DNA from: Sphingomonas sp.
Lineage (GTDB): Bacteria > Pseudomonadota > Alphaproteobacteria > Sphingomonadales > Sphingomonadaceae
Assembly: GCF_017304635.1 (NCBI RefSeq)
Contig: NZ_JAFKMA010000001.1
Coordinates: forward strand, 558,001-622,000
Reading direction: 5' to 3'
Length of the DNA stretch: 64,000 nucleotides
Shown here: in pieces, positions 1 through 18,828 of the stretch
How positions within the stretch are numbered: the first letter of the stretch is position 1
Layout of the letters: each line of letters begins with the position of its first letter
Translations under genes and position numbers: made by a program
Notes under the pieces: generated by a model
Seen by the model: the letters and a program-made list of their open reading frames with translations, nothing else
Told to the model about the DNA's origin: nothing
The model's database searches: none

Positions 1-1242
1 GAGCAGAATTACGCCTTCTTCACGCACAACATCTTCGAGGTTGCGCCGGGCCTGAAGCTGACGGTCGGCCTGCGCTACACGCACGAGAGCAAGAAACTGA
101 ACGGTACGTTTGCCAACAACAATACGGCGTGCCCGGCGCAGCAGGCGGCGTTGCTGCCCTATCTCAACCTGTCGCCGGCGTTGTTCGGCGGCCTGCTCGG
201 TCTGACCTGCCAGGGCAATTCGACCAGCGAGCTGAACGGCGTCAGCGTCAACGGCAGCCGGTCCGAAAACCGCCTGACCGGGACCGGGATCCTGTCGTAC
301 AAGGTCAACCCGCGCCTGCTGGTCTATGCGAGCTACGCGCGCGGCTACAAGGCGGGCGGCTTCAACCTCGATCCGTCGGCGTTGAAGAACCCGATCCCGA
401 CTTTCGCCTCGGTCGGCGGCGCGCAGGCGGTGGCCGGCAACCTGCAATTCGCGCCGGAGACCAACGACGCGCTCGAGCTCGGCGCGAAATATTCGTCGCG
501 TGCGTTCAGCCTGAACATCGCCGCGTTCCGTCAGCTGTTCAGCAATTTCCAGCTGAACACGTTCAATGGGTCGGTCTTCCTGGTGCAGAACATCGATGCG
601 TGCTCGACCAGCCTGAATGGGGCGGATCGCGACACCAGCGCGAGCACCGGCGCCTGCACCGGCAAGACGAAAGCCGGCGTCGTGTCGCAGGGCGTCGAGC
701 TAGAAGCGGTCCTCAATCCCTCGCGCTATTTCAGCGTCAATGCCGGTTTCACGCTGGCCGACACGCGGTACCGCAACAACTTGGTCGGCAACGCCGCCGG
801 GGTGCCGCTCGATCCGGCGCTACGCATGCTGCCGGGGAACCAGATGTCCAACGCGCCGCGCACGGTGACGACGATGGGCGTGTCGTGGACGCCGCCGATC
901 GGCGACACCGGGCTGAGCGCGCTGTTCTACGTCGATGGGCGCCTGACGAGCGATTTTAACACGGGCTCCGACCTGTTCCCGCAAAAGGCGCAGGACGGCT
1001 ATTTCGTGATGAACGCGCGCGTGGGCCTGCGCGGCAAGGACGATCGCTTCTCGATCGAATTGTGGGCGCAGAACCTGCTCAACACGAACTACACGCAGGT
1101 CGCATTCAGCTCGCCGTTCCAGGCGGGGGCCAGCACCGCGACGTTCACGCCCGACTCGCGCTATCCTGGCGGGGCGCAGATCTTCTCGGCGTTCCTGGCG
1201 GAGCCGCGGACGTACGGGATTACCTTGAGGGGCAAGTTCTAG
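1..1242 (+). CDS. TonB-dependent receptor, C-terminal part (5' end outside window)
   Basis: This is the outer-membrane beta-barrel part of a TonB-dependent receptor. The reading frame is open from base 1, so the signal peptide, TonB box and most of the plug domain lie outside the window. The visible 413 residues have alternating aromatic and polar beta-strand character, with typical receptor strings such as YASYARGYKAGGFN, ELGAKY and FNAG-type strands. The protein ends YGITLRGKF, with the terminal Phe expected of an outer-membrane barrel recognised by the BAM machinery. Receptors of this class import large substrates using TonB/ExbBD energy. The neighbouring catabolic cluster suggests an organic substrate rather than a siderophore, but that is inference. 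The substrate cannot be read from the sequence. Confidence 0.9.
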   Translation, partial: EQNYAFFTHNIFEVAPGLKLTVGLRYTHESKKLNGTFANNNTACPAQQAALLPYLNLSPALFGGLLGLTCQGNSTSELNGVSVNGSRSENRLTGTGILSYKVNPRLLVYASYARGYKAGGFNLDPSALKNPIPTFASVGGAQAVAGNLQFAPETNDALELGAKYSSRAFSLNIAAFRQLFSNFQLNTFNGSVFLVQNIDACSTSLNGADRDTSASTGACTGKTKAGVVSQGVELEAVLNPSRYFSVNAGFTLADTRYRNNLVGNAAGVPLDPALRMLPGNQMSNAPRTVTTMGVSWTPPIGDTGLSALFYVDGRLTSDFNTGSDLFPQKAQDGYFVMNARVGLRGKDDRFSIELWAQNLLNTNYTQVAFSSPFQAGASTATFTPDSRYPGGAQIFSAFLAEPRTYGITLRGKF

Positions 1243-1600: not shown

Positions 1601-2839
1601 TCAGCCGACTATGCCGTCGTCAAAAAGCCCGAATGCCAGCGTCGAGGCGTAATATTTCACCGCGCGGTCCCGCGGCATCGTGCTCGCCCATTTGCGCATG
1701 TCGAACGCCGCGTTTTGCAATGCCATCAGCGACTGCGCGACGATCATCGGGTCGACCGGGCGGAGCGATCCCTCGGCCGCACCATCGGACAGCATCCCGG
1801 CATAGCGCCGCGCGATCCGGTCCGACCGGTCGATCATCGCGCGCCGCACCGGCGTCGGCAGGCCGTTGAGCGCGGTGGTGCGCAACAGCGGCCCGCGCTC
1901 CGAGAATTGCACATCGAGCAAGGTCGCGACGATGCTCGACAGACGGTGCCACCAGTCGCCGCCGGCGGTGTCGCCGGCTTGCTGCACCTCGACGATCATG
2001 TCGAAGCTGCGCTTGAAGCACTGGATGATGAGGTCGTCCTTCGCGTCCAGATGGTGGTAGAAGCTGCCCTTGGTGACGTTCAGTTCCGACGCGATCCGCT
2101 GCACGCTGGCACCGCGATAGCCGAGTTCGTTGGTCAGCCGGGTGGCCGCGCGCAGGAACGCCTCGCGCCCCGGTTCCGCTTCCTCATGCTCGACGTCGAG
2201 CAGGGTCGGCTCCCAGCGCGCGCCCGGTCCGGCGAAACCATGGCGGAACATGTCCATCAGCCGCGCCTCGACTCGGTCGAACTGGTCGAGGTCGTAGCGT
2301 TCGATCCAGGCCGGAATCCAGAACGTATTCTCCAGCAGGACGTGCGCGCGCGCGCCGTTCAGATCCTTCTGCCGGCGATCGGCGGGCTCGCCCCACAGCG
2401 CGCGCGTGCGGCGGAACACGTCGCGCCAGCCGGCCATCAGCCGGCCGAGCATCGGCTCCTCCATCGCGCGCAGGTCGGACAGCGAGGCGAGCGCGCGCTC
2501 GTCATGCTCGCGAATCCGTGCGTACCGCACCATGTTGAGCGCGACGTAGCGGGCGACCCGCGCCTCTGCGGTCGGCTCGGCATGCGCGGCGTCGAGCATC
2601 TCGCCCAGCACTTCCAGCGTGTGTTCGAAACACGCCTGCGCCAGATCTTCCTTGCGCTTGAAATAATAGGTCACGCTGGTCGTGTTCAGCCCGACCCGCC
2701 GCGCGACGTCGGCGAAGGTCATGCCCTTCGCGCTCTGCTCGTTGATCGCTTCGGACGCGGCGGCGAGGATGGCGTCGCGCTTGGCGCGGAATCGCTTGGT
2801 CCGGACTTCTTCGACGTCGGCGATTTCTACGTGCCCCAT
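1601..2839 (-). CDS. Tandem double-TetR transcriptional regulator
   Basis: This 412-residue protein consists of two complete TetR units in one chain, about twice the usual TetR length. The first DNA-binding domain has its helix-turn-helix at about residues 41-62 ([19 protein letters not shown]), followed by a helical ligand domain. The second helix-turn-helix is at about residues 244-265 ([20 protein letters not shown]), followed by a second ligand domain ending at residue 412. A single chain can therefore act like a TetR dimer, with two non-identical recognition helices. It is transcribed divergently from the acyl-CoA dehydrogenase operon, with 164 bp between the starts, and probably represses that operon and itself, relieved by an acyl-CoA. 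The inducer is unknown. Confidence 0.88.
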
Positions 2840-3003: not shown

Positions 3004-4287
3004 ATGGACTTCACGTTGAGCGAGCGCGAGACCTATTTCCGCGACCGGGTGAAGGCGTTCATCGACAAGGAAATCGCGCCCCGCAACCACCTCTATCACG
3101 AGCAATCGCACGAGGGGGATCGCTGGAAGGTGCTGCCGGTGATCGAAGAGGTGAAGGCGATCGCCAGGGCGCAGGGGCTGTGGAATTTCTTCATGCCGCC
3201 GCATTCGGGCCAGACTCACGTCGACGACAGCTTCGAGTTCGAAGGGACGCAGCTCACCAACCTCGAATACGCCCTTTGTGCGGAAGAGATGGGCAGGATC
3301 GGCTGGGCGTCCGAATGTTTCAACTGCTCGGCACCCGACACCGGCAACATGGAAGTGTTCCACCGCTACGGCACGCGCGAGCAGAAGGAGCGCTGGCTCA
3401 AGCCGCTGATGAATGGCGAGATTCGTTCCGCCTTCCTGATGACCGAGCCGGCGGTCGCCTCGTCCGACGCGACCAATATCGAGACCAGCATGGTCCGCGA
3501 TGGCGATCACTACGTCATCAACGGGCGCAAATGGTGGTCGTCGGGCGTCGGCGATCCGCGCTGCGCCGTCGCGATCGTGATGGGCAAGACCAATCCCGAC
3601 AACAAGCGGCACCAGCAGCAGAGCCAGATCCTCGTCCCGATGGACGCGCCCGGCGTGACGATCGAGCGGATGCTGTCGGTCTATGGCTACGACCACGCGC
3701 CGCACGGGCATGGTCAGGTGCTGCTGGAGAATGTCCGCGTGCCGGTCGAGAACATCCTGCTCGGCGAGGGGCGCGGCTTCGAGATCGCGCAGGGCCGGCT
3801 CGGGCCGGGGCGCATCCATCACTGCATGCGCACGATCGGCACCGCCGAGACCGCGATCGAGGCGATGGCCAAGCGCCTGCTGAGCCGCGTCGCATTCGGC
3901 AAGCGGATCGCCGACCATTCGATTTGGGAACAGCGCATCGCGCGCGCGCGGATCGACATCGAGATGACCCGGCTGCTCTGCCTCAAGGCCGCCGACATGA
4001 TGGATAAGGCCGGCAACAAGTCGGCCCAGCTCGAGATCGCGATGATAAAGGTGCAGGCGCCGACCATGGCGTTGCAGATTCTGGACGATGCGATCCAGGC
4101 GCATGGCGGCGGCGGCGTCAGCGACGACTTCCCGCTCGCGCACCAATGGGCGGCGATGCGAACTTTGCGCTTCGCCGACGGGCCGGACGAAGTGCACAAC
4201 CGCGCGATCGCCCGGAACGAGTTCGGCAAATATGGCGACTATCGCACCGACCTGCCGTCGAGCGGGGATATCGGGGTCAGCCGCTAA
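3004..4287 (+). CDS. Acyl-CoA dehydrogenase, ACAD10/11 type
   Basis: This FAD-dependent acyl-CoA dehydrogenase family protein has 427 residues, longer than the usual 380. The N-terminal helical domain is at about 1-150, the beta domain starts with [16 protein letters not shown], and the C-terminal helical domain carries [13 protein letters not shown]. In place of the usual YEGT catalytic segment it has [10 protein letters not shown] at about 389-398, with an acidic residue at 392. This is the signature of the ACAD10/11 and LvaC group, which removes phosphate from 4-phosphoacyl-CoA rather than simply dehydrogenating. The matching kinase partner is encoded at 5599. The start is set by AGGAG about 9 bases upstream; an out-of-frame ATG at 2999 is ignored. 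It is the first gene of the operon. Confidence 0.9.
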
Positions 4288-4296
4288 CGCTTATCC

Positions 4297-4385
4297 GTCA
4301 TGCCGGACTTGTTCCGGCATCCACCGCGCAGCAATTTCCACCGAAGCGGATGGCACGGTGGACCCCGACACAAGGCCGGGGTGAC
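4297..4385. repeat. Palindromic intergenic repeat
   Basis: Arms 4297-4325 and 4357-4385 (29 bases each) are imperfect reverse complements beginning GTCATGCCGG and ending CCGGGGTGAC. It fills the gap between the acyl-CoA dehydrogenase and alcohol dehydrogenase genes. The ribosome binding site of the next gene starts directly after its right end. Confidence 0.8.
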
Positions 4386-4400
4386 GAAGGGAAGAGCAAG

Positions 4401-5483
4401 TTGAAGGCAGCCGTTTTGTTCGAGGCGAAGCAGCCGCTCGAAATCCGCGACGTCGACGTGGCCAAGCCTGGCCCGCACGAGGTGCTGATCCGGACAGCCG
4501 CATGCGGCGTATGCCGCTCCGACCTGCATTTCGTCGATGGCGCCTATCCGACGCCGCTGCCCGCCATCCCCGGCCATGAAGCAGCCGGCATCGTCGAGGC
4601 GGTCGGCAGCGAGGTCCACACGGTCAAGCCGGGCGACGCGGTCGTGACCTGCCTGTCGGCCTTCTGCGGCCATTGCGAGTTCTGCGTGTCGGGCCGCATG
4701 TCGTTGTGCGTCTCGGCCGAGGTGCGACGGCAGCAGGGCAGCGAGCCGCGCCTGTCGATGGACGGCGCGCCGGTCCATCAGATGCTCAACCTGTCGGCCT
4801 ATGCCGAGATGATGCTGGTCCACGAACATGCCTGCGTGCGCGTTGATACCGACATGCCGCTCGACCGCGCGGCGCTGCTCGGCTGTGCGGTCACGACGGG
4901 GGCGGGGGCAGTGTTCAATTCGAGCCCGGTGACGCCAGGCGAGACCGTCTGCGTGGTTGGCTGCGGCGGGATCGGCCTGGCCGCGGTCAACGCCGCCAAG
5001 ATCGCGGGCGCGGGCAAGATCATCGCGCTCGACCCGGTGCCGGAGAAACGCGCCCTGGCCGAAAAGCTCGGCGCGACGCACAGCTTCGATGCGACCGCCG
5101 ACGGTACGGTCGGCGAGGTAGTCGAGCTGACCAAAGGCGGTGTCCATCATGCGATCGAGGCGGTCGGGCGCGAGGCGTCGGCGGAAACCGCGGTCAAGGT
5201 GCTGCGGCGCGGCGGCACCGCGACGATCCTCGGCATGATGCCGCTCGGCAGCAAGGTCGGGCTGTCGGCGCTCGACCTGCTCGGCTCGAAGAAATTGCAG
5301 GGCGGGCTGATGGGCGGCAACCGCTTCCCGGTCGATATTCCCCGGCTGGTCGATTTCTACCTGCGCGGGCTGCTCGACCTCGACTCGATCATCGCCGAGC
5401 GGATGCCGCTGGAGCGGATCAACCATGCGTTCGACGAACTGCGCAAGGGCGATGCTGCGCGTAGCGTGATCGTGTTCGGATGA
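4401..5483 (+). CDS. Zinc-dependent medium-chain alcohol dehydrogenase
   Basis: A 360-residue NAD(P)-dependent alcohol dehydrogenase of the medium-chain family. Catalytic zinc ligands are visible in ACGVCRSD, PGHEAAG and the Cys of LLGCAVTTGAG. The structural zinc lobe is CGHCEFC plus a fourth Cys in MSLC. The Rossmann motif is VVGCGGIGLAAV. The start is a TTG at 4401, read as MKAAVLFEAKQPLEI, with AAGGGAAG just upstream. Upstream in-frame codons fall in the repeat element and are rejected. It should oxidise or reduce an alcohol/aldehyde intermediate of the same pathway as its operon partners. The substrate cannot be read from the sequence. Confidence 0.9.
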   Translation: MKAAVLFEAKQPLEIRDVDVAKPGPHEVLIRTAACGVCRSDLHFVDGAYPTPLPAIPGHEAAGIVEAVGSEVHTVKPGDAVVTCLSAFCGHCEFCVSGRMSLCVSAEVRRQQGSEPRLSMDGAPVHQMLNLSAYAEMMLVHEHACVRVDTDMPLDRAALLGCAVTTGAGAVFNSSPVTPGETVCVVGCGGIGLAAVNAAKIAGAGKIIALDPVPEKRALAEKLGATHSFDATADGTVGEVVELTKGGVHHAIEAVGREASAETAVKVLRRGGTATILGMMPLGSKVGLSALDLLGSKKLQGGLMGGNRFPVDIPRLVDFYLRGLLDLDSIIAERMPLERINHAFDELRKGDAARSVIVFG

Positions 5484-5498
5484 TGCCGACCGGCCCTC

Positions 5499-5587
5499 GT
5501 CATCCCCGCGCAAGCGGGGACCCATCTCCCGACCGTTGCGCTGGGTGGGACGGGCACGAGATGGGCCCCCGCTTGCGCGGGGGTGAC
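5499..5587. repeat. Palindromic intergenic repeat
   Basis: Two 30-base arms, 5499-5528 and 5558-5587, pair with two mismatches. Each arm also folds on itself (CCCCGCGCAAGCGGGG). It fills the gap between the alcohol dehydrogenase and kinase genes. The kinase Shine-Dalgarno GGGAGGG starts directly after the GTGAC end. Confidence 0.85.
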
Positions 5588-5598
5588 GGGAGGGTTTT

Positions 5599-6687
5599 AT
5601 GACGACGGCGCATCCCGACGACGCCCCCAAGACGGTTGCGGTCGACGAGAGGAACGCGCTCGACCTCGACCGGCTGGCCGCGTGGATGGCGGCGAACGTT
5701 GCCGGGTTCGCCGGCCCGCTCGACTACACCAAGTTCGCCGGCGGCCAATCCAACCCGACCTACAAACTGAGCGCGGCATCGGGCGACTATGTCCTCCGTC
5801 GCAAGCCGTTCGGCAATCTGCTCCCCTCGGCGCACGCCGTCGATCGCGAATATCGCGTGATCGCGGGGCTGTACCCGACCGGCTTCCCGGTCGCGCGGCC
5901 CTATGGCCTGTGCACCGACCCGGCCGTCATCGGCACCGACTTTTACGTCATGGGTTTCGCCGACGGGCGGAGCCTATGGGACGGGACGCTGCCCGATTAC
6001 ACGCCGGCGGAGCGGACCGGCATCTACAACGCGATGTGCGACACGCTCGCCGCGCTCCACAACACCGATCATGTCGCCGCAGGGCTCGGCGAATATGGCA
6101 AACCCGGCAATTATTTCGAACGCCAGGTCGCGCGCTGGACGAAGCAGTACAAGCTGGCCGAAACCGAACACATGCCGGCGGTCGAAAGCCTGATCGAGTA
6201 TTTGCCGCGCACGATTCCCGAGCAGACACGCAGGTCGATCGTCCATGGCGACTACCGCATCGACAACATGATGTTCCACGCGACCGAACCGCGCGTGATC
6301 GCGCTGCTCGACTGGGAACTGTCGACGCTGGGCGATCCGCTGGCCGATTTCAGCTATTTCCTGATGAGCTGGGTGACCGTGCCGGAGGGACGGTCGGGCA
6401 TCCTGGGCAAGGCCGGCGGCGACAGCGGCATCCCGACGATCGACGACATGGTCGCGCGCTACTGCGCCGCGACGGGGCGCGACGGGGTGCCCGACCTCAA
6501 CTGGTACTTCGCCTACAACCTGTTCCGGCTGACCGGCATCGTCCAGGGCATCAAGAAGCGCATCGTCGAGGGTACCGCGTCCTCGGCGCAGGCCGGGATC
6601 GCTGGCCGCATCGCGCCTTCGCCAACGGCCCCGGCCTTCGCCGGGGTGACGAGATGGGAGGAGAGAAAATGTCGCTGTTCGACCTGA
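5599..6687 (+). CDS. APH-fold acyl-CoA kinase, ACAD10/11-associated type
   Basis: A 362-residue aminoglycoside-phosphotransferase-fold kinase. The nucleotide loop is FAGGQSNPTYKL (46-57), the catalytic loop HGDYRIDN (216-223) and the metal-binding segment LLDWE (236-240). GNLLPSAHAVDREYRV (72-87) and GIPTIDDMVARYC closely resemble the kinase domain fused to acyl-CoA dehydrogenase in animal ACAD10/11 and the free kinase LvaA of Pseudomonas levulinate catabolism. That enzyme phosphorylates the 4-hydroxyl of a 4-hydroxyacyl-CoA. Residues from about 327 to 351 are encoded by a palindromic repeat, so the native C-terminus has been replaced by APSPTAPAFAGVTRWE-type sequence. The last 19 bases overlap the next gene. 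The fold and the family link are secure; the substrate is inferred. Confidence 0.88.
   Translation: MTTAHPDDAPKTVAVDERNALDLDRLAAWMAANVAGFAGPLDYTKFAGGQSNPTYKLSAASGDYVLRRKPFGNLLPSAHAVDREYRVIAGLYPTGFPVARPYGLCTDPAVIGTDFYVMGFADGRSLWDGTLPDYTPAERTGIYNAMCDTLAALHNTDHVAAGLGEYGKPGNYFERQVARWTKQYKLAETEHMPAVESLIEYLPRTIPEQTRRSIVHGDYRIDNMMFHATEPRVIALLDWELSTLGDPLADFSYFLMSWVTVPEGRSGILGKAGGDSGIPTIDDMVARYCAATGRDGVPDLNWYFAYNLFRLTGIVQGIKKRIVEGTASSAQAGIAGRIAPSPTAPAFAGVTRWEERKCRCST
6578..6650. repeat. Palindromic repeat inside the 3' end of the kinase gene
   Basis: GGCCCCGGCCTTCGCCGGGG near the right end, and the left half with GGCGCAGGCCGGGATCGCTGG, match the dispersed palindromic family of this window. Here the element is read through as codons of the upstream kinase. 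Its right end, GTGAC, leads into the GGGAGGAGAG ribosome binding site of the following dehydrogenase. Confidence 0.7.
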
Positions 6688-7433
6688 CCGGCAAGATCGC
6701 GATCGTCACCGGATCGTCGAAGGGGATCGGCAAGGCGTCGGCGTTCGAACTCGCCGAGCATGGCGCGAAGGTCGTCATCTCGAGTCGCAAGCAGGACGCG
6801 TGCGACGCGGTCGCGGCGGAGATCAACGCGACATACGGCGACGGCACCGCGATCGCGGTCGCCGCCAACATCTCCGACAAGGCGGCGCTGCAGTATCTCG
6901 TCGACAAGACGCGGGCGGCGTTCGCGCGGATCGATGTGCTGGTCTGCAACGCCGCGTCCAACCCCTATTACGGCCCGCAGGCGGACATCAGCGACGAGCA
7001 GTTCCGCAAAATCCTCGACAACAATATCGTGTCGAACCATTGGCTTATATCGATGGTCGCGCCGGAGATGCGCGAGCGCCGCGACGGCGCGATCATCATT
7101 GTCTCGTCGATCGGGGGACTTCGCGGATCGCCCCAGATCGGCGCCTATTGCATTTCGAAAGCGGCCGACATGCAACTCGCGCGCAATCTCGCGCACGAAT
7201 ATGGCCCCGACAATGTCCGGGTGAACTGCATCGCGCCGGGCCTGGTCAAGACCGACTTCGCTCGCGCGCTGTGGGAGGATCCGGCGCGGCAGAACGCGGC
7301 CAACCGTTCGGTCCCGCTCCGTCGCATCGGCGAGCCGGCGGACATTGCCGGCGGCGTCGTGTTCCTGGCGTCGCGCGCGGCGGCGTTCACCACGGGCCAG
7401 ACAATCGTGATGGATGTCGGCGTGACGATCTAG
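6669..7433 (+). CDS. Short-chain dehydrogenase/reductase
   Basis: A 254-residue classical SDR. The cofactor motif is TGSSKGIGKAS near residue 14, NAAS follows the fourth strand, the catalytic Ser is in IVSSIGG and the catalytic Tyr/Lys in YCISKAA. The C-terminal half ends with the family's usual GQTIVMDVG. The ATG at 6669 is preceded by a strong GGGAGGAGAG. It overlaps the kinase stop by 19 bases because the kinase 3' end has been extended by a repeat. In an lva-like pathway an SDR oxidises the 3-hydroxyacyl-CoA made after phosphate elimination; that role is inferred from the context. Confidence 0.92.
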   Translation: MSLFDLTGKIAIVTGSSKGIGKASAFELAEHGAKVVISSRKQDACDAVAAEINATYGDGTAIAVAANISDKAALQYLVDKTRAAFARIDVLVCNAASNPYYGPQADISDEQFRKILDNNIVSNHWLISMVAPEMRERRDGAIIIVSSIGGLRGSPQIGAYCISKAADMQLARNLAHEYGPDNVRVNCIAPGLVKTDFARALWEDPARQNAANRSVPLRRIGEPADIAGGVVFLASRAAAFTTGQTIVMDVGVTI

Positions 7434-7440
7434 ATTGTCC

Positions 7441-7545
7441 GTCATCCCGACCTCGTGCCGGGATCCACCATGCCGCGAGCGTGGGACGAGAGTTTCAACG
7501 GCGGGCCAAGCCGCCCGGTAGATGCCGGGACAAGCCCGGCATGAC
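7441..7545. repeat. Palindromic intergenic repeat
   Basis: Arms 7441-7469 and 7517-7545 (29 bases each) are imperfect reverse complements, starting GTCATCCCGAC and ending CCGGCATGAC. It occupies nearly the whole gap between the two SDR genes. The GGAGG ribosome binding site of the second SDR starts directly after it. Confidence 0.82.
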
Positions 7546-7556
7546 GGAGGATGAAA

Positions 7557-8357
7557 ATGGCAAGGTTTACCGACAAATCGATCATCGTCACCGGCGCGGG
7601 CTCGGGTATCGGCCGCGCCACCGCCCTTCTGTTCGCGCGCGAAGGCGGGCGGGTGATCGTCGCCGACCGGACCAAGGGTGCGGAGGAAACCGCGCGGATG
7701 ATCCTCGACGCCGGCGGCCAGGCGGTCGCGATCGAGATCGACGCAGGGCTTGAGGATGACGTCGTCCGCACCGTCGATCTGGCGGTCGAGCGGTTCGGTG
7801 GGCTCGACATCATGTTCGCCAATGCCGGGATTTCGGGCGGCGTGGCCAACATCTTCGACACCGATGTCGAGCTGATCTCGGAGGTGTTGCGCGTCAACCT
7901 GATCGGCCCGTACCTCGCGATCAAGCACGCCGCGCCGAAAATCGCGGAGCGGGGCGGCGGCGCGATTGTGCTGACCGCCAGCGTCGCCGGCATCCGTTCC
8001 GGCGCAGGCTCGCCGGCCTATTCGGCATCGAAGGCTGGGGTCATCAACCTGGCGATGACCGCGGCGCAGCAGCTGTCGGGATCGAACGTCCGCGTCAACG
8101 CGATCTGCCCCGGTTTGACCGAGACCGGCATGACCAAGCCGACCTTCGATTATGCGCGGGATGCTGGCAAGATGGACCGGGTCGGCCGGCTTAACCCACT
8201 GCGGCGTGGCGCGCAGCCCGAGGAACTGGCCGAAGTCGCCGCCTTCCTCGCCAGCGACGCCGCGAGCTACGTCAACGGCCAGGCGATCGCGGTCGACGGC
8301 GGCCTGTCGTCGAGCCACCCGGTGACCAAGCAGGAATATGGACGGACCGCGGTATGA
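7557..8357 (+). CDS. Short-chain dehydrogenase/reductase
   Basis: A 266-residue classical SDR with [12 protein letters not shown] as the dinucleotide motif, NAGIS, the catalytic Ser in LTASVAG and YSASKAG for Tyr/Lys. The C-terminal GQAIAVDGG is typical. Of two in-frame ATGs (7551 and 7557), the second has GGAGG at a 6-base spacing and is preferred; the first would abut the Shine-Dalgarno. It differs clearly from the preceding SDR, so the operon has two distinct oxidation steps. Its stop overlaps the next start (ATGA). Confidence 0.92.
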
Positions 8358-8656
8358 CCTTGCTCATCATGGGAACGGTGCGCATCCCCAACGGCGCGCT
8401 CGATGCGGCGCGGCCGGCAATGGTGGCGATGCTGGCGGCGAGCCGCGCGGAGGATGGATGCCTGGCGTACAGCTACGCGCAGGACGTACTCGACCCGCGC
8501 GTCATCCATGTCAGCGAGCGGTGGCGCGACCGCGCCGCGCTCGACGCGCATTTCACGACACCGCATATGGCGGCGTGGCGCGCGCAATTCGCGACGCTCG
8601 GCATCACCGACCGCGACCTGACGCTATACGAAAGCGACGACGGCGCGCCGATCTGA
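8354..8656 (+). CDS. ABM-domain monooxygenase-like protein (YgiN type)
   Basis: A 100-residue protein of the antibiotic-biosynthesis-monooxygenase fold, a ferredoxin-like dimer. Typical features are [14 protein letters not shown] at the start, [13 protein letters not shown] in the centre, and [21 protein letters not shown], the W-x-D-x-x-A-L-x-x-H signature of the group. Relatives act as quinol monooxygenases or small cofactor-independent oxygenases. The start overlaps the SDR stop by 4 bases, so it is translationally coupled and is the last gene of the rightward operon. The substrate is unknown. Confidence 0.82.
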
Positions 8657-8674: not shown

Positions 8675-9586
8675 TCAGTCGCGTGGCGTGCGCCTGCGGA
8701 TCAGCCCTTCCTGCGCGGTGCTCGCGATCAGGCGGCCGTCGCGCGTGAAAATGCGCCCGCGGTTGATGCCACGGCCATGCCCGGCCCACGGCGCGTCCAT
8801 CGCGTAGAGCAGCCACTCGTCGGCGCGGAACGGCTCGTGAAACCACATGGCGTGGTCCAGGCTGGCGGTCTGCATCCCCGGCGTCATCCAGTTGACGCCG
8901 TGTGGCATCATGCTCGTCGCCATCAGCCCCATGTCGCTGGCATAGGCCAGGACGGCGCGGTGCATCGCCGGGTCGGCGTCGAGCGGCGCGACCGCACGGA
9001 TCCAGGTGTAGTTGACCGGCTCGCGCACGTCGGGCGCGACCCAGTTGCGCGGATAGAGTGGGCGCACCTCGATCGGGCTGGACCAGCGCAGGAACCGCTG
9101 GCGATGCTCCTCGGGCAAGTCCTTCGCGGCGTCGACGCGCAGTTCGGCGTCCGATTTCAGGCCCTCGGGCGGGGGAATGTTGGCGGGGAACGCGTCCTGG
9201 TGATGGAAGCCGTCCTCGGCGACCTGGAAGCTGGCGGCGAGGTTGAGGATGGGCTGGCCGTTCTGGGTCGCGATGACGCGGCGCGTCGCGAAGCTCCGGC
9301 CGTCGAAATCGCGCACGACGCGATATACGATCGGCAACGCGTCGTCGCCGGCGCGCATGAAATAGGCGTGGAGCGAGTGCGCCGCCTTGCCCTCGGTCGA
9401 ACGCTGCGCCGCCTGGAGCGCCTGGCCGATCACCTGCCCGCCGAACACGCGCCCGCGACCACCGGGCAGCCGCGCGCCGCGATACAGGTCGGTATCGAGC
9501 TCCTCGACATCGAGCAGGTCGACCAGCCCGGCGACGAGCTGCTCGGGCGTGCGCGGCGGGCGAGGGGTTGGGTCTTCTTCGGCCAT
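8675..9586 (-). CDS. tesB: Acyl-CoA thioesterase II
   Basis: A 303-residue double-hotdog thioesterase. The substrate-entry motif is RVFGGQVIGQAL near residue 45. The active-site Asp lies in YASDMGLM and the Gln in STAQEGLIR near the C-terminus. It hydrolyses acyl-CoA to free acid and CoA, acting as a release valve during beta-oxidation. It is the last gene of the leftward operon, separated from the acyl-CoA dehydrogenase by a 100-bp gap that holds a palindromic repeat. Confidence 0.93.
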   Translation of the reverse strand: MAEEDPTPRPPRTPEQLVAGLVDLLDVEELDTDLYRGARLPGGRGRVFGGQVIGQALQAAQRSTEGKAAHSLHAYFMRAGDDALPIVYRVVRDFDGRSFATRRVIATQNGQPILNLAASFQVAEDGFHHQDAFPANIPPPEGLKSDAELRVDAAKDLPEEHRQRFLRWSSPIEVRPLYPRNWVAPDVREPVNYTWIRAVAPLDADPAMHRAVLAYASDMGLMATSMMPHGVNWMTPGMQTASLDHAMWFHEPFRADEWLLYAMDAPWAGHGRGINRGRIFTRDGRLIASTAQEGLIRRRTPRD

Positions 9587-9686: not shown

Positions 9687-10814
9687 TCAATACCCCGCCG
9701 CGCGCGCCAATCGGTCGGCGTGGTAGTTCGCGTCGCCGAACATCTCGGCCAGTACGCGCTGGCGCTTCATGTAGAAGCCGATATCATATTCGTCGGTCAT
9801 GCCGATGCCGCCGTGCATCTGCACGCCTTCCTGCACCCCCAGCATCGCGGCGAGCGACGCCTGCGCCTTGGCGACCGATACCGCCTCGTCGGCCTGGGGC
9901 GAACCGGCGTCGAGCAGTTGCTGCGCTTTCAACGTCGCGGCGCGGGCGACCTCGAGCTCGGCATAGAGGTGCGCCGCGCGGTGCTGGAGCGCCTGGAACG
10001 TGCCGATGACGACGCCGAACTGCTTGCGCTGTTTCAGGTAATCGACGGTCAGGTCCATCGCGCCGCCGCCGACGCCGAGCAATTCGGCCGCCGCCCCCGT
10101 GCGCCCGGCGCGGAGCAGGCGGTCGAGTGGATCGCGGCCGGCATCGACCTCGCCGATCACCGCGTCGGCAGTGACCTCGACATTGTCGAACGCGAGCCGT
10201 GCCGCGATGCTCGAATCGGCCAGCCGCTCGGCTTCGGCGGTCAGGCCGGCGGCGCTCTTGTCGATCGCGAACAGCGTCACGCCGTCGCGATCGTCGGCCG
10301 ACCCAGCGGTGCGCGCGGCGACGATGATGAGGTCGGCGACATGGCCGTGCGTCACGAACTGCTTCTTGCCCGACAGACGGAAGCCGTTGCCCGACCGCTC
10401 GGCCGTGAGCGATACGGCGTCGCGGAACTTCGGCCCCTCGTCGATCGCCAGCGCGGCGACGGTCTCACCCGCGACGATGCCGGGGAAGTAGCGCGCCGCC
10501 TGCGCGGTGCCCTTCAGCGCTTCGACCGCGGCGACGGCGGTGGCGAGGAACGGGGACGGCGACAGGTTGCGGCCGATCTCCTCCAGCACCACGCCCGCCT
10601 CGACATGGCCGAGCCCGAGCCCGCCCTGATCCTCGCCGATCAGGATGCCGGTGAAGCCCATTTCGGCGAACTGCTTCCACAGGTCGCGACTGAACCCGGT
10701 GACGTCGTTTGCGTCGCGCAAGTGCCGCATATGCTGCACGGGCGCGTGTTCGGCGACGAAATCCTTCGCAGTATCGCGCAGCATCGCCTGTTCGTCGTTC
10801 AAATACAAAGGCAT
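9687..10814 (-). CDS. Acyl-CoA dehydrogenase, likely non-catalytic partner subunit
   Basis: A 375-residue acyl-CoA dehydrogenase family protein with all three domains: helical 1-120, beta 120-220, helical to the end. QMHGGIGMTDEYDIGFYMKR is near residue 335. The region that normally carries the catalytic Glu (YEGT) reads LAEMFGDANYHADR, so that Glu is absent. The next gene upstream in the operon, 10932-12116, is a second family member that keeps it. Paired, unequal acyl-CoA dehydrogenases forming alpha2beta2 complexes are known for sterol side-chain oxidation (FadE26/27 and FadE28/29 groups). Such a complex is inferred here. Confidence 0.88.
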   Translation of the reverse strand: MPLYLNDEQAMLRDTAKDFVAEHAPVQHMRHLRDANDVTGFSRDLWKQFAEMGFTGILIGEDQGGLGLGHVEAGVVLEEIGRNLSPSPFLATAVAAVEALKGTAQAARYFPGIVAGETVAALAIDEGPKFRDAVSLTAERSGNGFRLSGKKQFVTHGHVADLIIVAARTAGSADDRDGVTLFAIDKSAAGLTAEAERLADSSIAARLAFDNVEVTADAVIGEVDAGRDPLDRLLRAGRTGAAAELLGVGGGAMDLTVDYLKQRKQFGVVIGTFQALQHRAAHLYAELEVARAATLKAQQLLDAGSPQADEAVSVAKAQASLAAMLGVQEGVQMHGGIGMTDEYDIGFYMKRQRVLAEMFGDANYHADRLARAAGY

Positions 10815-10931: not shown

Positions 10932-12116
10932 TTACCGGTCCGGCAATTCCAGAATCCGCTTCGAGATGATGTTGAGCTGGACCTCGCTGGTTCCGCCCTC
11001 GATCGAATTGGCCTTAGTGCGCAGCCATGCACGCGGGGCACGGCCGCCGTCGGAGCGTTCGCTCTCCCATTCGACCGCATCCGATCCGCCGGCCGCCATC
11101 TCCAGCTCGTGGCGCGACTTGTTCAGTTCGGTGCCGTAATATTTCATCATGCTGGGCTGCGCGGGATGCGCCTTGCCCGCCTTGAGATCGTCGATGAACT
11201 TCTCCGACATCGCGCTGAAGGCCCGCGCGCGAACTTCGTGCAATGCGATCTGGCCGCGCAGGATCGGGTCGGCGAGGCGGCCCTGCGCGTCGAGCCCGAG
11301 CCGGTCGAGCGCGGTGCCGACCAGCGTCCCGCCGCTCGACAGGCCCAGCCCCATGCCGGAGATCATCTCGCGCTCGTGCCCGAGCAGGTATTTGGCGACG
11401 TCCCAGCCCTTGTTGAGCTCGTGGACCAGGTTCTCCTTGGGCACCGTCACATTGTCGAAGAACGTCTCGCAGAACGGCGAATAGCCACTGATGAGCAGGA
11501 TCGGCCTGGTCGAGACGCCGGGCGAGGCCATGTCGAACAGCAGGAAGCTGATCCCGGCCTGCTTGACCGACTTGTCGGTGCGGACGAGGCAGAAGATCCA
11601 GTCGGCCTTGTCGGCGTAGCTTGTCCAGACCTTCTGCCCGTTGACCAGGAAATGGTCGCCCTTGTCCTCCGCGCTGGTCGCCAGCGCGGCAAGGTCGGAC
11701 CCGGCATTGGGTTCCGAATAGCCCTGGCACCAGCGGATTTCGCCACGCGCGATCCTGGGCAGATGCTCCTTCTTCTGCGCCTCGTTGCCGTATTTCAGCA
11801 ACGCCGGGCCGAGCATCGAGATGCCGAAGCTGTTGAGCGGGTTGCGGCATCCCATCGCGCGCATTTCCTCGCGCAGCACCTTGCTTTCGGCCGGGCTCAG
11901 CCCGCCGCCGCCATATTCCTTGGGCCAGTCGGGCACGGTCCAGCCGCGCGCGCCCATCGCGTCCATCCACGCTTTCTGCGCCGGGCTCAGCATCGACTGG
12001 TCGCGGCCGCCCCACACGGCGTCTTTCTCGCTCCGCATCGGCTCGCGCATCTCCGGCGGGCAGTTCGCCTCCAGCCACGCGCGGGTTTCCTGGCGGAAGG
12101 TATCGAGGTCGCTCAT
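10932..12116 (-). CDS. Acyl-CoA dehydrogenase, catalytic partner subunit
   Basis: A 394-residue acyl-CoA dehydrogenase. WCQGYSEPNAGSDLA is the flavin/substrate loop that opens the beta domain, and KVWTSYADKADW follows it. The C-terminal helix carries NSIEGGTSEVQLNII, whose Glu matches the catalytic base of the family. Its start overlaps the amidase stop by 4 bases (ATGA), so the two are translationally coupled. It probably introduces the alpha-beta double bond of an acyl-CoA, together with the second, Glu-less subunit encoded downstream. Confidence 0.9.
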   Translation of the reverse strand: MSDLDTFRQETRAWLEANCPPEMREPMRSEKDAVWGGRDQSMLSPAQKAWMDAMGARGWTVPDWPKEYGGGGLSPAESKVLREEMRAMGCRNPLNSFGISMLGPALLKYGNEAQKKEHLPRIARGEIRWCQGYSEPNAGSDLAALATSAEDKGDHFLVNGQKVWTSYADKADWIFCLVRTDKSVKQAGISFLLFDMASPGVSTRPILLISGYSPFCETFFDNVTVPKENLVHELNKGWDVAKYLLGHEREMISGMGLGLSSGGTLVGTALDRLGLDAQGRLADPILRGQIALHEVRARAFSAMSEKFIDDLKAGKAHPAQPSMMKYYGTELNKSRHELEMAAGGSDAVEWESERSDGGRAPRAWLRTKANSIEGGTSEVQLNIISKRILELPDR

Positions 12117-13580: not shown

Positions 13581-15614
13581 TCAAAACCGCTCCCCCGCCT
13601 CGGCCTTGCGGCGGAGCAGCGGGGCGACCTCGACGCCGTTCGCTTCCAGCCCGGCGACCACCTTGTCGAGCCCGACCGTGTTCGCCCAGAACATCGGCCC
13701 GCCGCGATAGACCGGCCAGCCGTAACCGTAGATCCACACCGTATCGATATCCGACGCGCGCTGCGCCATGCCCTCGTCGAGGATCTTCGCGCCTTCGTTG
13801 ACCATCGGGTAGAGCGTCGCGGCCAGGATGTCGTCGTCGGTGAAGTCGCGCTTCGCCTGGTTCGATTTCGAGCGGAATTCCTCGATGATCTCGGCGACTT
13901 CGGGCGAGGGGGTGGGGTTCCGCTTCTCGTCGTAATCGTAGAAGCCCTTGCCGGTCTTTTGCCCCCAGCGGCCTTTCGCGGCGAGCGCATCGCGGATGCT
14001 TTCGATCCGGGTCGGGTCGCGGTGCCAGCCGATATCGACGCCGGCCAGGTCGCTCATCTGGAACGGTCCCATCGGCATGCCGAAGTCGACGATCGCCTTG
14101 TCGATCTGGTCGGGCCGCGCACCTTGCATCAGCATCGCGTTGGCCGGGCCTTGGCGCTGCGACAGCATGCGGTTGCCGATGAAGCCGGGGCACACGCCTG
14201 ACACCACCGCCACCTTGCCGATCGGCTTGGCCAGCGCCATCACCGTGGCCAACACGTCGGGCGCGGTCTTCGCGCCGCGCACGACCTCCAGCAATTTCAT
14301 GACGTTGGCCGGCGAGAAGAAGTGCATGCCGATCACGTCCGCCGGCCGCTTGGTTGCGGCGGCGATCTCGTCGACATTGAGGTAGGAGGTGTTGGACGCC
14401 AGGATCGCGCCCGGCTTGGCGATCGCGTCAAGCTTGCCGAACAGCTCCTTCTTGACGTCCATATTCTCGTAGATCGCCTCGATGATGAGGTCGCAATCCT
14501 TGAGCGCGTCGAGGTCGAGCGTCGGGGTCAGCAGGCCCATCAGCTGATCGACCTTGTCAGCGGTAAACCGGCCCTTTTTCGCCGAATTGTCGTAGTTGCG
14601 GCGGATCGTCGCGACGCCGCGGTCGAGCGCGTCCGGCGCGGTTTCGACGATCGTCACCGGGATGCCGGCCTGGAGGAAGTTCATGCTGATGCCGCCGCCC
14701 ATCGTGCCGGCGCCGACCACGCCGACCGACTTGATCGAGCGGAGCTGCGTGCCCTCGGGAATGTCGTCGACCTTCGCCGCCTGCCGCTCGGCGAAGAACA
14801 TGTAGCGCTGGGCCGCCGATTGCGTACCCATCATCAACTTCATGAACTCGTCGCGCTCGAACACGATGCCTTCCGCGAAGGTCGAGCCGTCGGCGGCCTT
14901 TTCGATGCAGCGGATGTTCGCGGCCGGCGCGTCGAAACCGCGGAACTTGCGGGCGTTAGCGGCCTTGAATGCGGTGACCGCGTCCGGGTCGGGCGTCGCG
15001 GTCTGCTCCGAGGCGCGGGGCAGGGGGCGCTTGGCCGCTACCTCGCGCGCGAAGGCGACCGCATCCGCTTCCAGCGACTCCTCACCGACGATCCTGTCGA
15101 TCAGCCCGGCGTCGTGTGCGCGCTTGGCCGAGATCGGATTGCCGATCGCGGTCATCTCCAGCGCCAGCGCGACCCCGGCGATGCGCGGGATGCGCTGCGT
15201 GCCGCCGGCGCCGGGCAGCAGGCCGAGCTTCACCTCCGGCGTGCCGATCTTCGCCGACGGCACCGCGACGCGATAGTGGCAGCCGAGCGTGACCTCGCAC
15301 CCGCCGCCGAGCGCGGTCCCGTGGATCGCGGCGACCACCGGCTTGTCCGACGCCTCGATCATGTCGATCACGGTGCCGAGGCCAGGGCCCTTCATCGGCT
15401 TGCCGAACTCGGTGATGTCGGCGCCCGCGAAGAAGGTGCGGCCGTCGCAGCGGATCACCATCGCGGTGATGCTGGCATCGGCGGTACCCTGCTTGATCGC
15501 CGCCTCCAGCCCCTCGCGCACCGCCGCGCCCAGCGCGTTGACCGGCGGGTTGTTGGAGATGATGACGAGCACGTCGTCGTGGCGTTCGGTGCGGATGGGG
15601 CTGGTCAATGTCAT
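13581..15614 (-). CDS. Bifunctional enoyl-CoA hydratase / 3-hydroxyacyl-CoA dehydrogenase (FadJ/FadB-like)
   Basis: A 677-residue multifunctional beta-oxidation enzyme. The N-terminal crotonase domain spans about 1-190, with an oxyanion-hole segment [13 protein letters not shown] and the acid/base Glu regions around [13 protein letters not shown]. The NAD-binding domain starts at [13 protein letters not shown] near residue 295. The dehydrogenase catalytic His is in [17 protein letters not shown], and duplicated C-terminal domains follow. The length suits the monomeric peroxisomal-type MFE rather than the longer E. coli FadB. It hydrates the enoyl-CoA made by the downstream dehydrogenases and oxidises the product. 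No thiolase gene is present in this window, so the last beta-oxidation step must be encoded elsewhere. Confidence 0.93.
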
Positions 15615-17082: not shown

Positions 17083-18828
17083 GTGTCGACCAACCCCGTG
17101 ATCGCGCTGGACTCGAGCTGGCCGAAGGTTTCGCTGAAGGACGCGACCGCCGCGCTGACCGCGCCGGGGACGAAGTTCGAGATGGCGACGGTGACGATCC
17201 GCGGCGTGCCGACTCGCGTGTGGAAGAATGCGCCGCACGATATCGGCCAGCTCGTCGACCTGTCGCGGATGCATGGCGACCGGGTGTTCGTGGTCCATGA
17301 CGACGAGCGGGTGACGTACGCGGCGTCGTACCGCGCGATCGCGACGCTGGCGCGTGCGCTGGTCGACATGGGGGTGGGGAAGGGCGACCGCGTCGCGTTC
17401 GCGATGCGCAACCTGCCGGAATGGCCGGTGATCTTCTTCGCGATCACCACGATCGGCGCGATCGCGGTGCCGCTGAACGCGTGGTGGACCGGCGGCGAGC
17501 TGGAATACGGGATCAACGATTCGGGTGCGAAAGTCCTGCTGGTCGATGCCGAGCGCTACGATCGGATCGCGTCGCATCTGGCGGCGACCCCGGCGGTCGA
17601 GCGCGTCATCGTGACCCGCGCGCCACAGCCGATCGCGGGGACGATCGCGCTGGAGGACATCATCGGCGGCCCGAAAGATTGGGCGACGCTCCCCGCCGAC
17701 GACCGTCCGCGCATTGCGATCGACAGCGATGACGATGCCACGATCTTCTACACCAGCGGGACGACCGGCAATCCGAAGGGCGCGCTGGGCACGCACCGCA
17801 ATCTGATGACCAACATCCTGTCGGGCGCGTTTTCCGCCGCGCGCAGCTTCATCCGGCGCGGCGAGGCGATCCCCGATCCGACGCCGCGCACGATGCTGAC
17901 GGTGATCCCGATGTTCCACGTCACGGCGTGCTCGGCCGGGCTGATGGGGATGCTGGCGAGCGGCAGCACCACGATCTTCATGCGCAAATGGGACCCGATC
18001 CGCGCGATGGAGATCATCGAGCGCGAGAAGGTCCACTTCACCGGCGGCGTGCCGACGATCGCGTGGCAGCTGCTCGAACATCCCGACCGGCATCTTTACG
18101 ATCTCTCCTCGATCGAGGCGATCGGCTATGGCGGGGCGCCGTCCGCGCCCGAGCTGGTGAAGAAGATCTACGAGGAATTCGGCGCGTTGCCCTCGAACGG
18201 CTGGGGCATGACCGAGACAATGGCGACGGTCACGGGTCATTCGGCGGAGGACTATCTCAACCGCCCGACCAGCGCCGGGCCGCCGGTCGCGGTCGCCGAC
18301 CTGGAAATCCGCGCCGACGACGGCGTCACCGTGCTGCCGATCGGAGAGGTCGGCGAATTGTGGGCGCGCGGGCCGATGATCGTGAAGGGCTATTGGAACA
18401 AGCCGCAGGCGACCGCCGAGACCTTCGTCGACGGCTGGGTCCGCACCGGCGACCTGGCGCGGCTGGACGAGGAGGGGTTCGTCTACATCGTCGATCGCGC
18501 CAAGGACATGGTGATCCGCGGCGGGGAGAACATCTATTCGTCCGAGGTCGAGAACGCGCTGTACGAACATCCCGCGGTGACCGACGCCGCGGTGATCGGC
18601 GTGCCGCACCGGTCGCTGGGGGAGGAACCGGCGGCGGTCGTCCATCTGGCACCCGGTACCAGCGCCAGCGAGGCGGAACTCCAGGCATGGGTGCGCGAGC
18701 GGCTGGCGGCGTTCAAGGTGCCGGTCGCGATCCGCTTCGCGCCCGAAACGCTGCCGCGCAACGCCAATGGCAAGATATTGAAGAAGGACCTGAAGGGCCT
18801 GTTCGCCGACCGCGCCGTAGCCGCCTGA
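17083..18828 (+). CDS. AMP-forming acyl-CoA synthetase
   Basis: A 581-residue adenylate-forming enzyme. The phosphate-binding loop is IFYTSGTTGNPKGAL near residue 224, the A5 motif NGWGMTETMATV, the A7 motif DGWVRTGDLARLDEEG and the A10 lysine is in NANGKILKKDLK near the C-terminus. It activates a carboxylic acid to acyl-CoA with ATP and CoA. The start is GTG 17083, with GGAGAGG three bases before it. It is transcribed away from the esterase operon and shares its 122-bp divergent region, so both are probably co-regulated. The acid cannot be specified from the sequence. Confidence 0.92.
   Translation: MSTNPVIALDSSWPKVSLKDATAALTAPGTKFEMATVTIRGVPTRVWKNAPHDIGQLVDLSRMHGDRVFVVHDDERVTYAASYRAIATLARALVDMGVGKGDRVAFAMRNLPEWPVIFFAITTIGAIAVPLNAWWTGGELEYGINDSGAKVLLVDAERYDRIASHLAATPAVERVIVTRAPQPIAGTIALEDIIGGPKDWATLPADDRPRIAIDSDDDATIFYTSGTTGNPKGALGTHRNLMTNILSGAFSAARSFIRRGEAIPDPTPRTMLTVIPMFHVTACSAGLMGMLASGSTTIFMRKWDPIRAMEIIEREKVHFTGGVPTIAWQLLEHPDRHLYDLSSIEAIGYGGAPSAPELVKKIYEEFGALPSNGWGMTETMATVTGHSAEDYLNRPTSAGPPVAVADLEIRADDGVTVLPIGEVGELWARGPMIVKGYWNKPQATAETFVDGWVRTGDLARLDEEGFVYIVDRAKDMVIRGGENIYSSEVENALYEHPAVTDAAVIGVPHRSLGEEPAAVVHLAPGTSASEAELQAWVRERLAAFKVPVAIRFAPETLPRNANGKILKKDLKGLFADRAVAA

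Follow-up and report, generated by a model that had tools for sequence, protein, structure and literature searches.

The DNA analysed here (the window) is a stretch of 64,000 nucleotides from a Sphingomonas sp. genome of 3.18 Mb in 7 contigs (GCF_017304635.1, contig NZ_JAFKMA010000001.1, positions 558,001 to 622,000). Its positions 3004-8656 carry a run of genes in one orientation whose Pfam content comprises the N-terminal, middle and C-terminal domains of acyl-coenzyme A (acyl-CoA) dehydrogenases, a zinc-type medium-chain dehydrogenase/reductase (MDR) alcohol dehydrogenase, an APH kinase domain (171 bits), two short-chain dehydrogenases/reductases (SDR 1 and SDR 2) and an ABM domain (Table 1). 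An earlier, sequence-only reading had taken the kinase and the dehydrogenase for the two halves of a split ACAD10/11-type system of 4-hydroxy acid catabolism, and the genes that it named were all found in the positions and frames it gave. Judging from sequence comparisons, the two genes probably form such a split module, embedded in a larger acyl-CoA catabolic cluster and using a 4-phosphoacyl-CoA route.

In mammals, where such a kinase and flavoenzyme are joined in ACAD11, ACAD10 and ACAD11 act on 4-hydroxy acids (PMC12440821), and in these enzymes the 4-hydroxyacyl-CoA is phosphorylated and the phosphate is then eliminated to give a 2-enoyl-CoA with no external electron acceptor (PMC11342911, PMC12440821). 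The split bacterial pair, its kinship to ACAD10/11 and its presence in Alpha-, Beta- and Gammaproteobacteria have also been published (PMC11342911, PMC12440821, PMC6692424).

The best match of the window dehydrogenase among solved structures is ACAD11 (439 bits, E 1.2e-130), followed by 4hr3 (433 bits), while the best solved acyl-CoA dehydrogenase outside the ACAD10/11 type reaches 142 bits. In ACAD11, residues R626, H634 and R637 bind the phosphate, R631 is conserved and D753 is the catalytic base (PMC12440821). The alignment places R265, R270, H273 and R276 of the window dehydrogenase at R626, R631, H634 and R637, and D392 at D753, as the catalytic Asp that replaces the usual Glu; the segment DGPDEVH, read earlier as standing in place of the usual Glu loop, is present in the translation as ADGPDEVH. 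Among 55 dehydrogenases, picked by hand from matches whose alignment covered more than 270 residues, this five-residue signature was complete in 41, exactly the members of the 41-row clade that holds ACAD11 (support 98/87), and in none of the remaining 14, which include the two ordinary acyl-CoA dehydrogenases of the window. The window dehydrogenase also groups with ACAD11 in a 36-row clade with support 100/100. It is the single ACAD10/11-type dehydrogenase detected in the genome, where the next match scores 118 bits. Structural match, signature and tree placement thus all bear out the earlier assignment of this protein, and a signature that divided the chosen sequences so cleanly could help to spot others.

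The kinase is likewise of the ACAD10/11 type. Its top solved matches are 3dxp, the Reut_A1007 kinase of Ralstonia eutropha (386 bits, E 1.5e-114), ACAD11 (250 bits, E 2.9e-73, 40% identity over 324 columns) and 9o56 (189 bits). The motifs GGQSNPTY, LLPSAHAVDRE and HGDYRIDN, on which the sequence-only reading had relied, were all read in the translation. By alignment D218, N223 and R175 correspond to the catalytic residues D220 and N225 and to R176 on the CoA side of ACAD11, the numbering of the aligned chain running one below the published numbering for these three residues. The pair R83-E84 was matched to the published R86 beside the helix-C Glu by its described position, since the numbering offset did not fit. 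The catalytic residues do not vary across two alignments, one of 32 rows and one of 26. In a tree of 54 hand-picked kinases, which excluded Rv3168 (3ats) and from which no match was dropped for shortness, the window kinase joins ACAD11 and 3dxp in a clade of 39 rows (support 97/99), while the 9o56 group (99/98) and eight kinases linked to DUF6285 genes (100/100) form separate clades. The program warned that the ACAD11 row has a long branch and an atypical composition, which leaves its exact position unsure. A placement outside the LvaA/ACAD10-11 clade had been named earlier as the outcome that would speak against the assignment; in this tree, run against ACAD11, the kinase lies with ACAD11.

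With E values of 2.9e-73 (kinase with ACAD11), 1.5e-114 (kinase with 3dxp) and 1.2e-130 (dehydrogenase with ACAD11), the assignment of both proteins is not a matter of chance. It is hardly credible that the locus joins an aminoglycoside-type phosphotransferase and an ordinary acyl-CoA dehydrogenase of unrelated functions. The APH fold in Pfam, and the annotation of several plasmid relatives as aminoglycoside phosphotransferases, would suit such a reading, which is contradicted by the tree, by the signature residues, by the co-occurrence described below and by a score of 19 bits with the APH(3') model, for which the cut-off is 205.

Two further structures deserve comparison. The model of an ortholog, L136, matches 3dxp at a template modelling (TM) score of 0.87, and the 25-hydroxy steroid kinase (PDB 9fsg), whose title describes the phosphorylation of a hydroxyl on a lipophilic compound, shares the fold; it differs in being 18% identical and in acting on a free steroid and not on an acyl-CoA. 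L071, L073-L080 and L083 carry kinases 46-57% identical to that of the window, and in the stretches of 14-20 kb examined there no ACAD11-type gene was detected.

Kinase and dehydrogenase also travel together. Among 150 genomes drawn from the phylum, with thresholds of E<=1e-80 for the dehydrogenase and E<=1e-40 for the kinase (the latter fixed after the scores had been seen), 37 contained the dehydrogenase and 38 the kinase: both were present in 37, the kinase alone in 1, the dehydrogenase alone in 0 and neither in 112 (Fisher p 2e-34, a value that ignores shared ancestry). At the looser kinase threshold of 1e-8, matches were found in 40 of the 150 genomes (37 with both genes and 3 with the kinase only). 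The two genes lie within 5 kb of each other in 21 of the 37 genomes with both, and a kinase is found within that distance of 24 of 50 dehydrogenase genes. On a Novosphingobium capsulatum plasmid and on a conjugative Sphingobium plasmid they overlap by 4 nt and are followed by SDR, SDR and FadB genes.

To examine the wider operon we searched with the kinase, which gave 204 loci, and used the best 80 of these with names (57-93% identity); 66 of the 80 are recorded under the name Sphingomonas; counts were restricted to these because 20 further loci (L051-L070) overlap them (L051, for example, is L137). The double-TetR regulator, dehydrogenase, alcohol dehydrogenase, kinase and the two SDRs form a recurrent operon in most of the 80 loci (Table 1), and a serine hydrolase and an amidase are found at the same identity in 26 and 20. 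When only the 67 uncut loci are considered, SDR 2 and the dehydrogenase are each present in 65, the regulator in 61, the alcohol dehydrogenase in 60, SDR 1 in 56 and the ABM protein in 3. Within the gene set first proposed, the alcohol dehydrogenase and SDR 1 are common but not universal members, and the ABM protein is a weak point.

Table 1. Genes and repeats of the operon and its surroundings, in window coordinates. Counts out of 80 are loci with a match of at least 45% identity; some loci are cut short where the contig or the 9-kb flank ends, which affects the ligase count most.
Feature	Coordinates	Strand	Evidence
TonB-dependent receptor, C-terminal part; gene begins upstream of the window	151..1242	+	TonB barrel; 14/80 loci
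Double-TetR regulator, two TetR DNA-binding domains per chain, divergent from the operon	1601..2839	-	two TetR_N stretches; 66/80 loci
ACAD10/11-type acyl-CoA dehydrogenase (P0001)	3004..4287	+	R265, R270, H273, R276, catalytic D392; 74/80 loci
REP-like inverted repeat, dehydrogenase/alcohol dehydrogenase gap	4296..4386	.	34-nt arms, 76% complementary
Zinc-type MDR alcohol dehydrogenase	4401..5483	+	Pfam; 72/80 loci
REP-like inverted repeat, alcohol dehydrogenase/kinase gap	5498..5588	.	39-nt arms, 87% complementary
Kinase core (P0002 residues 1-332)	5599..6594	+	R83-E84, R175, D218, N223, D238
Replaced kinase C-terminus of 30 residues plus stop, encoded by a REP-like repeat	6595..6687	+	sequence comparison with relatives
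SDR 1	6669..7433	+	Pfam; start overlaps the end of the kinase gene (stop at 6687); top PDB matches carry the name SDR family member 4; 66/80 loci
REP-like inverted repeat, SDR 1/SDR 2 gap	7438..7548	.	39-nt arms, 74% complementary
SDR 2	7551..8357	+	Pfam; 76/80 loci
ABM-domain protein, not widely conserved	8354..8656	+	PF03992, 61 bits; 7/80 loci
TesB-like acyl-CoA thioesterase	8675..9586	-	family models; 49/80 loci
Acyl-CoA dehydrogenase, PimD-like (small-subunit) type	9687..10814	-	below model cut-off; 58% in L211, 63% in L115; 53/80 loci (may take in the second pair upstream)
Acyl-CoA dehydrogenase, PimC-like (large-subunit) type	10932..12116	-	below model cut-off; 69% in L211, 77% in L115; 53/80 loci (may take in the second pair upstream)
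FadB-like enoyl-CoA hydratase/3-hydroxyacyl-CoA dehydrogenase	13581..15614	-	62-66% in L113, L114, L115, L212; 53/80 loci
Acyl-CoA ligase	17083..18828	+	CasG model 458 bits (cut-off 750); 65% in L115, 54% in L211, 63% in L212; 10/80 loci

Several observations weigh against the proposed module. Because the genomes surveyed are related, their co-occurrence counts cannot be taken as independent. The 37 genomes that hold both genes include 16 without a pair inside 5 kb, and for 26 of the 50 dehydrogenase genes no kinase lies that near. Solitary relatives of the window dehydrogenase occur on plasmids. Finally, the window kinase is without the C-terminal segment usual in its relatives, and AlphaFold2 places the tail found instead below a predicted local distance difference test (pLDDT) value of 50, that is, as disordered, while the ortholog L136 shows two C-terminal helices there (pLDDT 88-96). 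Because the tail has no relatives in the alignments used (26 rows), its low pLDDT is partly expected.

The C-terminus of the kinase, of which the sequence-only reading made no mention, is the unusual part of the locus. Ortholog kinases end like ...SSAQAEKSAAGVYRLADAAWDFAQKAGA, where the window kinase reads GIAGRIAPSPTAPAFAGVTRWEERKCRCST, and the last 30 residues of its open reading frame (ORF) are unlike the C-terminus of the relatives. The usual segment, whose use as a criterion of membership was set in this analysis and lies outside any published definition, is kept in 80 of 80 loci (in 77 the motif was present with a score of 43 or more, and 3 were judged by eye); the window tail scores 18 against it, with a shuffled mean of 15.9. 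Inverted repeats resembling repetitive extragenic palindromes (REP-like) occupy every junction between neighbouring genes from the dehydrogenase through to SDR 2, four in all, that at the kinase end spanning 6581-6646. In L137, the closest relative by identity (93% over kinase residues 5-332), the 12-mer CGGCGCAGGCCG is found in kinase codons and again 99 bp on, in a REP-like repeat past the stop, whereas the window has a single CGGCGCAGGCCG copy within the kinase gene, with coding sequence to its left and the repeat to its right. The simplest account of this junction would be that the tail arose by a 99-bp deletion between two such 12-bp copies; an assembly error is possible.

Loss of the segment may have reduced or changed the activity of the window kinase. 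We consider it possible, if on balance rather doubtful, that this copy is inactive or impaired and its pathway blocked or decaying, as the absence of a segment present in all 80 loci, the predicted disorder of the new tail and a repeat junction that fits a deletion would suggest. The catalytic residues are nonetheless intact, and the core is under purifying selection, with a ratio of nonsynonymous to synonymous substitution rates (dN/dS) of 0.081 relative to L137, the nearest relative, and 5 changes on the window branch against 3 among 265 sites, which is no clear excess. Given this selection on the core, the apparent deletion is recent, tolerated, or both. It also provides a clear case of a REP-like repeat reshaping the end of an adjoining gene.

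The proposed 4-phosphoacyl-CoA route could run as follows. The acyl-CoA ligase would activate a carboxylic acid, which is probably lipophilic and may enter through the TonB-dependent receptor. One or both SDRs might then adjust a 4-keto group or a wrong-handed 4-hydroxyl; since the ACAD10 kinase prefers the R form (PMC11342911, PMC12440821), they could serve to correct the stereochemistry or to reduce a 4-keto group. The kinase would phosphorylate the 4-hydroxyl of the acyl-CoA, as its family and residues suggest and as shown for its relatives, and the dehydrogenase, with Asp392 as base and flavin adenine dinucleotide (FAD), would remove the phosphate to yield a 2-enoyl-CoA without an external electron acceptor, as shown for ACAD10/11. 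The neighbouring FadB-like, paired dehydrogenase and thioesterase enzymes would carry on beta-oxidation, with the operon probably controlled by the double-TetR protein.

Both enzyme types and the checked active-site residues are the same as in mammalian ACAD10 and ACAD11 (ACAD11: PDB 8v3u, 8v3v), and the chemistry is presumably the same. Unlike these, the window pair consists of two polypeptides with an alcohol dehydrogenase gene between them, and is accompanied by two SDRs and a double-TetR regulator and marked by a replaced kinase tail. From the published description, the Burkholderia pseudomallei orthologs of LvaA and LvaC are likewise a split pair, and they stood in for either ACAD10 domain in vitro (PMC11342911). 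The operon supplies split relatives of the mammalian enzyme.

A parallel with lvaABCDE had also been proposed, and it stands in part. Compared by type, the kinase, dehydrogenase, SDR and ligase match LvaA, LvaC, LvaD and LvaE of Pseudomonas putida (PMC6692424), whereas the window has an extra alcohol dehydrogenase and SDR and a regulator of TetR type instead of sigma54 type. LvaB, the 12-kDa partner, is presumably a DUF6285 protein; no match to this family (PF19802) was found in the genome at E<=0.001, and the DUF6285-linked kinases form another clade. This absence is not fatal by itself to an lva-type reading, because an lva-like cluster of P. citronellolis is described without lvaB (PMC6692424). 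The published identity of LvaA to ACAD10/11 kinases is 29% (PMC11342911), against 40% between the window kinase and ACAD11, the alignment methods being different. The surroundings, with two ordinary acyl-CoA dehydrogenase pairs, a TonB-dependent receptor, thioesterases, an amidase and a serine hydrolase, are unlike those of a short-acid operon. We therefore regard a true lva-type operon for levulinate or 4-hydroxyvalerate as improbable, and it is plausible, as first suggested from the gene content, that the substrate is a different 4-hydroxy acid. No recognisable lvaABC was found in 25 genomes of one genus nor in 119 genomes of its family.

Among the DUF6285-linked loci recovered by search, the nearby dehydrogenase of L103 is 53% identical to that of the window and lies about 3-4 kb from the kinase. 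At L107-L111, the dehydrogenases near DUF6285 genes are 30-36% identical to it, yet all five signature residues are kept. Since these diverged dehydrogenases retain the signature and the DUF6285-linked kinases form a clade of their own, the genes at L107-L111 perhaps represent a second, diverged kinase-dehydrogenase family.

The presence of an MDR alcohol dehydrogenase in the operon, together with the handling of 4-hydroxy acids by mammalian ACAD10/11 (PMC12440821), could instead point to disposal of 4-hydroxyalkenals and similar products of lipid peroxidation, in which the alcohol dehydrogenase would convert an aldehyde or lactol. This appears quite improbable: the Pfam scan of the operon genes revealed no aldehyde dehydrogenase, the operon sits in a large catabolic cluster, and the alcohol dehydrogenase is missing at 45% identity in 7 of the 67 uncut loci. 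Its best PDB match is an S-(hydroxymethyl)glutathione dehydrogenase (279 bits), and its start is probably the TTG at 4401, within a longer ORF.

The acyl-CoA ligase, a synthetase 9 kb away that had been counted among the set, probably belongs to the pathway, as three relatives have an ortholog of it within their kinase cluster, at a distance of 4-25 kb from the kinase gene: a Hyphomicrobiales bin (L211), Parasphingopyxis (L212) and Croceicoccus (L115). The paired dehydrogenases are also present in the L211 and L115 clusters, and FadB in those of L115 and L212. Membership is called into question by two sphingomonad plasmids, L113 and L114, whose cluster ligase is just 28-29% identical. Just upstream of the window lie a second ligase, a thioesterase, a second acyl-CoA dehydrogenase pair and the start of the TonB-dependent receptor gene, whose relative L118:17950-19998 comprises plug and barrel where the window portion is barrel.

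Paired dehydrogenases and a TonB-dependent receptor hint at a bulky lipophilic acid. An assignment to steroid or pimelate substrates was not made, as the matches of the ligase and paired dehydrogenases (CasG, PimA/C/D, IpdE2) fall under the model cut-offs, as do all NCBIfam matches shown for the ligase. A bolder proposal, which we rate as unlikely, is that a bulky 4-hydroxy acid or lactone, resembling a terpenoid or steroid, is taken up through the TonB system and enters its pathway at the gamma-hydroxyl by way of this module, that the SDRs together epimerise the 4-hydroxyacyl-CoA to supply an R-selective kinase, and that the repeat-mediated deletion rebuilt the kinase tail with function kept.

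The operon is ordinary in kind and its family well supported, the kinase end being what is unusual. A PHROGs search gave no result, and no paper dealing with this Sphingomonas operon was found in an open-licence library that lacks most subscription journals. As a candidate 4-hydroxy-acid pathway, an operon widely conserved in Sphingomonas becomes testable, its plasmid relatives being annotated just as generic phosphotransferase and acyl-CoA dehydrogenase.

Among the plasmid-borne relatives, a solitary ACAD11-type dehydrogenase 71% identical to that of the window was observed at L116 (10001-11239, plasmid pISP1 of Sphingomonas sp. MM-1), between linX and gorA and among copies of IS6100. The neighbours of the solitary dehydrogenases on hexachlorocyclohexane (HCH) plasmids and on pHG1 gave no hint of substrate. 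The same 71.2% dehydrogenase match was seen on three more Sphingobium plasmids. A pattern built from one of the REP-like repeats occurs 28 times in the genome, against 0 for the reversed control.

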